A stretch of DNA of 52,110 nt from an uncultured Eubacteriales bacterium (GTDB lineage Bacteria > Bacillota > Clostridia > TANB77 > CAG-508). Below are positions 2,634 to 14,739 of this stretch, in pieces (position 1 is the stretch's first letter; every line of letters starts with the position of its first letter). The stretch is from positions 1 through 52,110 of the forward strand of contig CATKWX010000012.1 of the NCBI GenBank assembly GCA_949840345.1, in the 5' to 3' direction. Under the pieces are notes generated by a model that saw nothing but the letters and a program-made list of their open reading frames with translations, ran no database searches and had not been told where the DNA came from. A program made the translations under genes and the position numbers.

Positions 2634-3098
2634 CTAATCTTTAATCGCAATATAAATATGAATTTCTTGATTTTGCATATCTTGTGAATTATTTTGATAT
2701 TCTTCAAAATCGCAATTATATTTTCTCTTTAAATCCATACTCCATATTTCTTGCCAAGCTTGTCCTACTGAATTTTGAACATCTCCTGTTATAATAAATT
2801 TGGCATATTTACCTTTTGGAATAATCTTAGTTACTATTTCTTTGTTATTTTCTAATTCTTCACTAACCTCTGCTCCTGCAATAAATGTATAAGGTTTTGT
2901 ATAATCTCCTTCATATTCTGTATATAATCCTATTGTTTTATTATTTACCTTATTTTGTATTTTTTCGTAAATTCCATCTGCAAATAGTTTTTGCCAAGTC
3001 ATGCCTATGTCTTCAATAGACTTTCCATTTTGATTAGTTGTTTTAATTTTAACTCCTACAACCTTCTTTTCTTCTAATTCTACAATTTCATATTTCAT
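2634..3098 (-). CDS. GyrI-like / AraC effector-binding domain protein
   Basis: A 154-residue single-domain protein resembling the effector-binding domain of AraC-type regulators (GyrI/Rob-like). Visible features are the opening VELEEKKVVGVK strand, the central GAEV segment and the closing IYIAIKD strand. It probably binds a hydrophobic or cationic ligand; no catalytic motif is evident. Start chosen at the ATG preceded by AGGAGG. It has its own promoter (ATGACA, 16 bases, TATAAT) overlapping an inverted repeat, and probably shares a transcript with the GyrI-like gene after it. Confidence 0.78.
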   Translation of the reverse strand: MKYEIVELEEKKVVGVKIKTTNQNGKSIEDIGMTWQKLFADGIYEKIQNKVNNKTIGLYTEYEGDYTKPYTFIAGAEVSEELENNKEIVTKIIPKGKYAKFIITGDVQNSVGQAWQEIWSMDLKRKYNCDFEEYQNNSQDMQNQEIHIYIAIKD

Positions 3099-3126
3099 AA
3101 TATCTACCTCCTAAAATGAAGTATAT

Positions 3127-3154
3127 ATTATATAACTTGACAACTGTATGTCAT
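3127..3154 (-). promoter_or_regulatory. Promoter and operator of the GyrI-like pair
   Basis: On the minus strand ATGACA and TATAAT lie 16 bases apart. The -35 region is part of the inverted repeat TGACA-N6-TGTCA (3138-3153). A closely similar sequence, sharing ATATGACA-N-ACA-N2-TGTC, lies in front of the WYL regulator gene at 4078-4117, so the regulator probably controls both itself and the two GyrI-like genes. The operator assignment is inferred. Confidence 0.6.
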
Positions 3155-3155
3155 A

Positions 3156-4055
3156 TTAAAAATAATTTTTTAAAGTTTTTTCTAATTTTTCCTTTATAAT
3201 TTTTTTGGCTTTATCTGGTGATAAAACTTTTGCATATTCTCCAAATGATAGTATATAGCCATATACCCACTCATTCTCTGGATACTCTACTGTTATAATA
3301 AAGTCTCCATTTTTATTTTTAGTTATTTCTTCACTTTCAAACTCATCATACACTCTATAAGCCATATCTTTACTTATCTCTAATTTAAGTATTATGCTTT
3401 TGAAATTATCTTCTCTATGATAATTTTCTTTTGGTAATTCTCGCTTAAAATGTTCTTCTAAAATTTTAACTTCTTTCATTCTTGTAATTTTAAATATTCT
3501 ATAATCGCTCTTATTCCTACAATAACTTATTAGATACCAAGACTTATTTTTAAAACATATTTGTAATGGTTCTGCAATTCTTTTACTTTCCTCTCCATTA
3601 GAGTTATAGTATGTAAATTCAATTATGTTTTTACTTAAAATCGCAGATTTAATAATTTCAAATCTATTTTTTTGTGTATCCTCTTTACTCCAATTAGAAA
3701 AATCTATTCTTATCCAATCATTTATTTCTTTATTAAATAATGTACTTAATTTCCCTAAAATATTTTTTTCATCTTCTCCTCTTACTTTTTTCATTCCTTG
3801 CAGTGCAAACAAAATTTGATTTTGTTCTTCTTCTGAAAGAATAGCCTTATTTAGAACATATTCATCCAAAAGCCCTATTCCACCATCTTTTCCCTTAGTT
3901 GCATAAATTGGTATATTTGCTGTACTTAATGCTTCTATATCTCTATATATAGTTCTTGTAGATACTTCAAATCTATCTGCTAATTCTTTCGCTGTAACCT
4001 TTTTCTTTTGCATTAGTATATATACTATTTCAAATAATCTATTATTCACTTGCAT
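3156..4055 (-). CDS. WYL-domain transcriptional regulator (YafY-like)
   Basis: A 299-residue DeoR/YafY-type regulator. An HTH occupies about residues 5-60 (the recognition segment reads VSTRTIYRDIEAL), a central WYL domain about 140-210 (WYLISYCR), and a C-terminal WCX-like extension follows. WYL domains bind small ligands or nucleic acids and switch the HTH. Start from AGGAGG at close spacing. A 40-base palindrome lies in its promoter and a related site in front of the next genes, consistent with autoregulation and control of the GyrI-like operon. The ligand is not evident. Confidence 0.9.
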   Translation of the reverse strand: MQVNNRLFEIVYILMQKKKVTAKELADRFEVSTRTIYRDIEALSTANIPIYATKGKDGGIGLLDEYVLNKAILSEEEQNQILFALQGMKKVRGEDEKNILGKLSTLFNKEINDWIRIDFSNWSKEDTQKNRFEIIKSAILSKNIIEFTYYNSNGEESKRIAEPLQICFKNKSWYLISYCRNKSDYRIFKITRMKEVKILEEHFKRELPKENYHREDNFKSIILKLEISKDMAYRVYDEFESEEITKNKNGDFIITVEYPENEWVYGYILSFGEYAKVLSPDKAKKIIKEKLEKTLKNYF

Positions 4056-12976: not shown

Positions 12977-13239
<263 letters not shown>

Positions 13240-13307
13240 ATATATGTATACGCAAGTAATATTATAATATTTTATTCAATTTATTTCAATAGAAAAACCT
13301 AAAAATG

Positions 13308-13336
13308 TTGAAATCTAAATAAAAATATTATATAAT
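13308..13336 (+). promoter_or_regulatory. Promoter of tRNA-Arg(CCT)
   Basis: TTGAAA and TATAAT are separated by 17 bases; the tRNA begins ten bases after the -10 box. Confidence 0.75.
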
Positions 13337-13346
13337 CCATTTATAC

Positions 13347-13423
13347 GCATCTATAGCTCAGTAGGATAGAGCGCTCCCCTCCTAAGGGAGAGGTCATTGG
13401 TTCGATTCCAATTAGGTGCACCA
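13347..13423 (+). tRNA. tRNA-Arg (anticodon CCT)
   Basis: Complete cloverleaf with encoded CCA: acceptor GCATCTA/TAGGTGC, D stem GCTC/GAGC, anticodon stem CTCCC/GGGAG with loop CTCCTAA, T arm GGTTCGATTCC. It reads AGG. Its last 21 bases are repeated at 13556-13576. Confidence 0.96.
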
Positions 13424-13576
13424 AAACTTGTCTCACGACAAGAGTGAAGAGTTAAAAGTGAATAGTGAAGATACTTAAATGGAATCGAAAAGGACGTGCC
13501 GTAACAAAGTGAAGGCAAAAACAGTCCAGTGGACTGTTTTTAGGACGCGGCTCACCGATTCCAATTAGGTGCACCA
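13424..13576 (+). mobile_element. Gene-free tRNA-associated element, copy 2
   Basis: Directly downstream of tRNA-Arg(CCT). It contains GGAATCGAAAAGGACG, the palindrome around CAGTCCAGTGGACTG, GGACGCGGCTCAC and then a second copy of the 3'-terminal 21 bases of this tRNA (13556-13576). The core is nearly identical to copy 1, while the flanking tRNA-derived bases match the local host tRNA in each case. Confidence 0.78.
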
Positions 13577-13728
13577 GACTTGCCTTATGGCAATAATTAA
13601 ATTTGCTTTGTTTAACAAAAATATTGGTATATGCAACGATAGAATTATAATTTATGAATTGAGAACTGATTATTAATGAATAAAATAAAAATGTATTAAA
13701 ATTAAATTATGAAATTTTAAATATTTGC

Positions 13729-13757
13729 TTGTCTTTTTGTAAATCGTATGATATAGT
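13729..13757 (+). promoter_or_regulatory. Promoter of the small hydrophobic peptide mRNA
   Basis: TTGTCT and TATAGT are separated by 17 bases. The predicted start near 13764 coincides with the beginning of the left inverted repeat, TATAGGAAATGAA. Confidence 0.65.
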
Positions 13758-13843
13758 ATTTGCTATAGGAAATGAATATAAAGCAGATGTGTGTTGCCAC
13801 TAAACTTTATAGCTTCTAGCTATTAGAAAGCGAGGTGGTGTTT

Positions 13844-13945
13844 ATGAGATTTATATTATTTTTAATATATATTTTAATGTTTTCATTAACCATAAACGTA
13901 GCCTTATTAGCATTTATATACATACTTTGGACAAATAAGGAATAA
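13844..13945 (+). CDS. 33-residue hydrophobic peptide, candidate type I toxin
   Basis: The peptide begins MRFILFLIYILMF and ends YILWTNKE: one membrane helix with a short charged tail, the form of type I toxins (Fst, TxpA, Ldr types). The start has GAGGTGGTG upstream. The mRNA would begin 80 bases upstream at a clear promoter. A convergent, near-consensus promoter lies downstream on the other strand, and a strong hairpin between the two can stop both RNAs. Toxicity is not shown; a small membrane regulator is the alternative. It is too short for most gene finders. Confidence 0.65.
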   Translation: MRFILFLIYILMFSLTINVALLAFIYILWTNKE

Positions 13946-14032
13946 ATAGAGACACTACATTATGCTTTGGCAGGCAATGTAGTGTCTTAACGTAAATATA
14001 TATGGCAACACATTCTAAATGCTTCATTTCCT
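13946..14032 (-). ncRNA. Candidate antisense antitoxin RNA
   Basis: Predicted from the minus-strand promoter at 14039-14067 and the hairpin at 13950-13987, about 85 bases. It is antisense to the 3' region of the peptide mRNA. No reading frame with a ribosome binding site is apparent in it. Confidence 0.5.
13950..13987. terminator. Shared hairpin between convergent small transcripts
   Basis: The 12-base arms AGACACTACATT and AATGTAGTGTCT are perfectly complementary around a 14-base loop. It starts five bases after the peptide's stop codon. U tracts on both sides are weak. Confidence 0.7.
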
Positions 14033-14038
14033 ATATTT

Positions 14039-14067
14039 ATTATACACATATACTATTGATTTGTCAA
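14039..14067 (-). promoter_or_regulatory. Consensus promoter on the opposite strand
   Basis: TTGACA and TATAAT separated by 17 bases, a perfect match to the housekeeping consensus, pointing toward the peptide gene. Confidence 0.8.
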
Positions 14068-14178
14068 ATAGATTTTTTATACAATGAGAATTATTTTCTA
14101 GTTTGACATTTGCTTAATTATTATATATATTATTGGTATTCTAAGTATTTACATTTAGAATAAAAGGAGTGAATTTAT

Positions 14179-14739
14179 ATGGAAACTGTAAAATCAATAG
14201 AGGATAGAAGAAGTATAAGAAATTACACTGACAAAAAAATATCAGAAGATATTGTAAAAGATATATTAAATTGTGGTAGATTAGCACCATCTGCAAAAAA
14301 CAGACAACCTTGGTATTTTGTAGTTGCTAAAAATGAGATTAAAGATAAAATAGCAGATATGATGATTGACTACTCAATAAATGCTGATGACACAATAGAA
14401 AGTGCAAGAATAGGTCATAAAAGTAGTGTTAACCCCACAGCAAATATAATAAAACAAGCACCTATACTAATATTAGTATTTAGAGAAAAAAACGATAATT
14501 GGATTATTGGAGATAATTTATCAATTGGTGCTTGTGTACAAAATATGTGTTTAAGAGCAACTGATTTAGGCTTAGGAACTCTTTGGATTAGAGACATTGT
14601 ATATGTTGCTGAAGATGTTGCCGAAATGTTAAATCATAGCGATTTAGAGTTAAACTGTGCCGTATCTCTTGGTTATCCAAATGAATCTCCAAAAATGAGA
14701 CCTAGAAAAAATTTAGAAGATATAATGGAATGGGCTTAA
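14179..14739 (+). CDS. Nitroreductase-family protein
   Basis: A 186-residue FMN-dependent oxidoreductase. The opening ETVKSIEDRRSIRNY carries the conserved FMN-contacting arginines, followed by CGRLAPSAKNRQPW and, near the C-terminus, GLGTLWIRD, all typical of the nitroreductase superfamily. It probably works as a dimer reducing nitro, quinone or flavin-like acceptors with NAD(P)H; the natural substrate is unknown. Start by AAAGGAG. The MFS transporter gene follows 30 bases later on the same strand and may be cotranscribed. Confidence 0.9.
   Translation: METVKSIEDRRSIRNYTDKKISEDIVKDILNCGRLAPSAKNRQPWYFVVAKNEIKDKIADMMIDYSINADDTIESARIGHKSSVNPTANIIKQAPILILVFREKNDNWIIGDNLSIGACVQNMCLRATDLGLGTLWIRDIVYVAEDVAEMLNHSDLELNCAVSLGYPNESPKMRPRKNLEDIMEWA

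Follow-up and report, generated by a model that had tools for sequence, protein, structure and literature searches.

What is the role of a gene for a 33-residue hydrophobic peptide that lies between two promoters facing each other, in a cassette whose two RNAs would start with mirrored sequence? This question is raised by a locus in a contig of an uncultured Eubacteriales bacterium (GenBank CATKWX010000012.1), of which the whole analyzed stretch of 52,110 nucleotides is here called the window. The best supported answer, a chromosomal cassette of the type I toxin-antitoxin kind, is in our view highly probable; an earlier note made from the bare sequence had already proposed a candidate type I toxin-antitoxin. 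The fuller explanation given below, in which such a cassette is joined to a proposed switch mechanism, is likely as a whole.

Layout and surroundings of the window copy

The peptide gene, the convergent promoters with their 17-nt spacing and the shared hairpin between them, all described in the earlier note, were found in place (Table 1). The hairpin has a clear U tract on neither side in this copy; many relatives have one.

Table 1. Parts of the cassette in the window and their positions.
Feature	Position	Strand	Details
Toxin mRNA promoter, P+ (predicted)	13729-13757	+	TTGTCT 13729-13734, 17 nt, TATAGT 13752-13757; TG before -10; 9/12 matches
5' arm, start of toxin mRNA	13764-13799	+	
Anti-SD segment of 5' UTR	13796-13801	+	predicted pairing with 13834-13839 in terminated mRNA
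Shine-Dalgarno (SD), GAGGTGG	13832-13838	+	
33-aa hydrophobic peptide ORF, putative toxin	13844-13945 (including stop)	+	MRFILFLIYILMFSLTINVALLAFIYILWTNKE
Central hairpin	13950-13987 (stem halves 13950-13961 / 13976-13987)		perfect 12-bp stem
3' arm, complementary to 5' arm	14003-14035	+	minus strand is the antisense RNA 5' end
Putative antisense RNA antitoxin, ~85-95 nt	13950-14036	-	from ~14036 to central hairpin
Antisense promoter, P- (predicted)	14039-14067	-	TTGACA 14067-14062, 17 nt, TATAAT 14044-14039; 12/12 matches

Both RNAs had been said to begin with almost the same 33-36 bases. The arms are indeed mirrored, but this wording slightly overstated their likeness, since a dissimilar stretch splits two perfect blocks, namely TATAGGAAATGAA (13 nt; 13764-13776 / 14023-14035) and TGTGTTGCCA (10 nt; 13790-13799 / 14003-14012). 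A duplex between the two arms is predicted at -35 kcal/mol, and a plus-strand RNA that reads through the hairpin is predicted to fold end to end at -80.4 kcal/mol (z = -7.3), a value equaled by none of 200 shuffles. In these models nucleotides 13796-13799 have alternative partners, i.e. the SD or the 3' arm.

In a congener, a glyoxalase-like gene occupies the interval between the tRNA and a nitroreductase-like gene, and the cassette is missing (the gene names are our own reading of the sequence), and the window copy is therefore regarded as lineage-specific. The occupation of this orthologous site by another gene, together with dispersed copies that number up to 12 per genome, would also suit a small transposable element with the arms as its terminal inverted repeats. 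Such an element is nevertheless very improbable, as both arms are internal to the promoters and would be transcribed, and similarity between cassettes ends at both -35 boxes, which belong to promoters of different sequence. Furthermore, nothing but this kind of peptide gene was seen between the arms; the counter-case raised in the earlier note, in which the arms would be transposon ends with different cargo, was looked for and no instance was seen.

Two repeats were observed upstream. A tRNA gene occupies 13347-13420, and its 3' end (CGATTCCAATTAGGTGCACCA, 13404-13421) recurs ~150 bp downstream at 13557-13575, a pattern such as integration of an element at the tRNA would leave; the cassette follows shortly after. 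At ~12991-13600, two divergent tRNA genes stand within a long imperfect inverted repeat, and parts of this repeat are dispersed in many copies across the genome.

Distribution, selection and decay in the family

When all sources were pooled, 107 distinct complete cassettes of one layout were recovered, a conservation that makes the arrangement more than a chance one. By a whole-cassette search, matches were found in 22 out of 37 relatives, at several places per genome and usually with both halves and their spacing conserved. In about 40 retrieved copies the SD reads GAGGTGGT and is followed by a gene for a small hydrophobic peptide, the peptides forming four sequence groups. A scan of a genome collection for the antisense-promoter pattern gave at least 114 stretches; among the matches listed were MAGs labelled Clostridia, Clostridium, Clostridiaceae or Eubacteriales, many of them named for animal gut samples.

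The distribution was analyzed using a model of the promoter and antisense RNA (R1), which was built from sequence only because a structure-free MAFFT alignment yielded no consensus fold, and which matches the window at 13950-14067 (minus strand) with 58.7 bits. Between one and 12 copies were found in each of 121 out of 145 genomes drawn evenly from the window's family, and 84 of 143 genomes drawn from the order were positive, among them members of families f3, f4 and f5. The phylum draw gave a single positive genome out of 299, namely the window's own. Matches outside the order in the class draw reached at most 35 bits and mostly concerned the promoter end of the model, resembling phage promoters; a strong R1 match outside the order was thus found in neither the class nor the phylum draw, and phage and plasmid collections gave weak short matches only. 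The cassettes apparently constitute a large and hitherto undescribed family within one order of gut Clostridia, in which a tiny gene for a membrane peptide faces a predicted antisense RNA. No description of it was found in the searched part of the open-access literature.

Like the coding selection and the arm coevolution treated below, the parts of the cassette and their conservation are established at the sequence level. In the relatives P+ follows TTGNNN-17-TATANT, mostly with 8-9 out of 12 matches, and the first 11 nt of the 5' arm (ATAGRAAATGA) are nearly invariant across the family. Every complete cassette contains a small hydrophobic peptide, nearly all of 33-42 aa. The central hairpin is A/U-flanked in many relatives, in the manner of a bidirectional terminator; the count of T residues 3' of the stem is an uninformative measure here, since the U tracts themselves take part in the stem pairing.

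Several loci showed particular configurations. Cassettes are tandem or adjoining in L027 (G004:C13), L143 and L086, and the L027 copies, which come from two peptide groups, have a nearly identical promoter and 5' arm, which suggests module exchange between cassettes. An insert of ~70 nt with repeated AATAAGC flanks is found in the 5' UTR of three cassettes, each from a different genome (L013 2675-2752, and similarly L166 and L169); it had no Rfam match and is single-copy in its own genome. A different candidate, at L012 ~2700-3350 (G000:C3:61700-62350), has two same-direction promoters with near-identical starts (ATAGCTTAAGCA) and a small peptide, MTKYDIIFLVIVLLLGKQWGKGKGRR, on the opposite strand between them. 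The 23 viral contig stretches with the antisense-promoter pattern proved to be ordinary phage promoters before other genes and were rejected as cassettes. In the viral contigs L178-L200, many TTGACA-17-TATAAT promoters are followed at once by ATAGAAAATGA, the start of the cassette RNAs.

Peptide genes gave a median dN/dS of 0.35 over 455 pairs, with 98% of the pairs below 1 and most change at third positions; the peptides are under purifying selection. Statistics on P- in the 107-cassette set are biased because that search was anchored on P-, whereas a search starting from the toxin is unbiased. The latter gave 25 intact peptide genes followed by enough sequence, and each of the 25 had, 118-133 nt beyond its stop codon, a P- matching 11-12 of 12 positions. 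In the reverse direction, 24 of the 109 antisense units with enough upstream sequence had no intact peptide gene (24/109 against 0/25 antisense-less peptide genes, Fisher p = 0.007). The eight R1 matches in the window's own genome likewise comprise five intact peptide genes, one degenerate (L011) and two antisense-only relics. Loss of the peptide with the antisense kept fits a toxin-antitoxin pair, as the toxin should go before the antitoxin, and we infer that the peptide would be toxic. It could instead be a benign or regulatory small membrane protein under antisense control, a reading with which the lack of any match to Pfam, NCBIfam or PADLOC toxin families at curated cut-off agrees. This seems quite unlikely in view of the one-sided decay, no intact peptide gene being without an antisense promoter, and of the tandem copies and numerous divergent paralogues within a genome, which are typical of toxin-antitoxin loci.

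Two predicted partners for the 5' arm

In minimum free energy folds, which are models only, the SD core is paired with the 5' UTR in 105 out of 107 cassettes. Positions in this pairing vary yet stay paired, the partner base changing together with the SD flank, while the SD and anti-SD are too highly conserved for a within-locus coupling test. According to the models, the 5' arm has two mutually exclusive partners, i.e. the SD and the 3' arm. The mean modelled cost of opening the SD over the 107 cassettes is 7.9 kcal/mol in the terminated mRNA, 5.6 in the read-through mRNA and 8.0 with a shuffled 3' arm; read-through lowers it in 90 of the 107 and raises it in two. For the window copy read-through makes little difference (6.7, 6.5 and 8.0 kcal/mol, respectively).

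These costs bear on the fold-back of some toxin mRNAs, to which the earlier note had compared the locus. In hok and AapA mRNAs, long-distance pairing of the 5' and 3' ends sequesters the SD and holds the mRNA inert (PMC6733600), and the strong end-to-end fold of the read-through mRNA would allow the same here, with 5'-3' pairing making the full-length mRNA inert and trimming of its 3' end activating it. We consider this unlikely, since in the models opening the SD becomes cheaper and not dearer when the 3' arm is present, and the 5' UTR by itself suffices to close the SD. The analogy thus holds for the end-to-end fold and fails for sequestration by fold-back, of which the fold-back is here modelled as a competitor.

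The fold-back itself gains support from the relatives, in which the covariation of the arms that the earlier note had proposed to look for was found. Beyond the common 11 nt, the inner arms coevolve within loci and the control regions do not. Within-locus similarity is 10.74 against 9.75 (sd 0.14) after permutation within clusters, the arm-arm duplex energy is -24.2 against -22.1 (sd 0.26) after permutation within peptide clusters (z = -8.1), and a partial Mantel test gave r = 0.41 (p = 0.002), none of three controls exceeding 0.02. Gene conversion between the arms could be an alternative source of this signal. A hairpin at the antisense 5' end also shows within-locus coupling (z = -8.7). Arm mismatches are G-U 133 times in the mRNA sense and 13 times in the antisense sense, the events not being independent; part of this asymmetry is shared consensus, since cross-locus arm pairs show 1609 and 231, respectively. 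Two further pairings were tried and rejected for no or weak within-locus coupling as compared with the -8.1 for arm and arm, namely antisense with SD in trans (z = -1.4) and mRNA arm with antisense hairpin (z = -2.8).

Such coevolution within loci is at odds with a strictly par-like system, in which both RNAs would end, and start pairing, at the central hairpin, and the arms would be mere matching 5' leaders, serving stability or as initial transcribed sequence, and would take no part in 5'-3' pairing. The layout is that of par of pAD1 (PMC7472228), and the A/U-flanked hairpins of many relatives resemble bidirectional terminators. In unrelated phage contigs, too, strong promoters are followed by ATAGAAAATGA, and there is a weaker sign of this in other Clostridia; the outer arm block may therefore be generic, and ATAGAAAATGA may be a general initial transcribed sequence. 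Against this stand the inner arms, which coevolve where control regions do not, the excess of G-U mismatches in the mRNA sense and the window hairpin with no clear U tract, and we find the strictly par-like reading doubtful.

The preferred reading remains a type I cassette with competing folds, for which we infer transcription, read-through and an RNase III step. The weaker promoter P+ would yield a toxin mRNA in which the anti-SD of its own 5' UTR closes the SD, and the near-consensus convergent promoter P- would yield an antisense RNA of ~90 nt ending at the central hairpin. As the earlier note had it, this RNA covers the mRNA 3' end, being fully complementary to the 3' UTR of the read-through mRNA, and to the hairpin of an mRNA terminated there. 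In the read-through mRNA the 3' arm would capture the 5' arm with its anti-SD and weaken the closure of the SD. Having a 5' end that repeats the sequence of the mRNA 5' arm, the antisense RNA would then take the 3' arm and send the 5' arm back to the SD, and the duplex of mRNA and antisense would be an RNase III target. This particular switch between 5' and 3' arm is put forward tentatively, at somewhat short of an even chance. As modelled it is partial, because opening the SD of the read-through mRNA still costs 5.6 kcal/mol on average, and read-through may be rare, because many relatives carry a good mid-cassette terminator. More speculatively, the antitoxin RNA may act by mimicry, its copied 5' end displacing the mRNA 5' arm from the 3' end so that the SD is closed again.

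Relation to known type I systems

The family resembles par/Fst/Ldr in its small hydrophobic peptide (33 aa in the window), convergent promoters, shared hairpin (terminator-like in many relatives) and, in the models, SD closed by a 5' stem-loop. It differs from Fst in the PXXXG(C) motif, which is present in none of the 107 peptides, and from par in its mirrored (inverted) ends, no direct repeats like DRa/DRb joining the ends of the window copy. Relatives, inspected by eye, showed only a short direct match resembling GTGGTTT. The antisense RNA would be ~90 nt long, whereas RNA II of par has ~40 nt (PMC7472228). In the absence of PXXXG and of a direct repeat joining the ends of the window copy, the family is not filed as Fst, and from sequence comparison we conclude that it is very probably a type I family with a par/Fst-like layout and not an Fst member.

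With aapA/IsoA of Helicobacter and hok/Sok, compared by description, it has in common a toxin mRNA that pairs end to end and an SD sequestered in layers, but in the models its long-distance pairing competes with the closing of the SD. Among Clostridia, Clostridioides difficile CD2517.1-RCd8 and related type I modules also have a convergent, overlapping toxin gene and antisense RNA; by their description in the review PMC6563280, their toxins have 50-53 aa as opposed to nearly all 33-42 aa in the family, and the passages on them make no mention of mirrored 5' ends. TxpA/RatA and BsrG/SR4 of Bacillus subtilis are alike in that the antisense RNA overlaps a short membrane-toxin mRNA in its 3' part (in part after PMC6563280); none of 35 peptides of the family matched a curated Pfam toxin family. 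Rfam gave no match in 13600-14200 up to E = 1, and a profile search of solved structures gave nothing.

Lastly, the cassettes would provide uncultured gut Clostridia with an order-wide and apparently new type I family, of which most genomes in the window's family carry copies. If the mimicry were true, end-to-end pairing of the mRNA would favor translation, the opposite of hok and AapA. The mirrored 5' ends lead to the testable prediction that the antisense RNA acts by copying its target's own leader, and the 107 cassettes hold enough natural variation for this to be tested.
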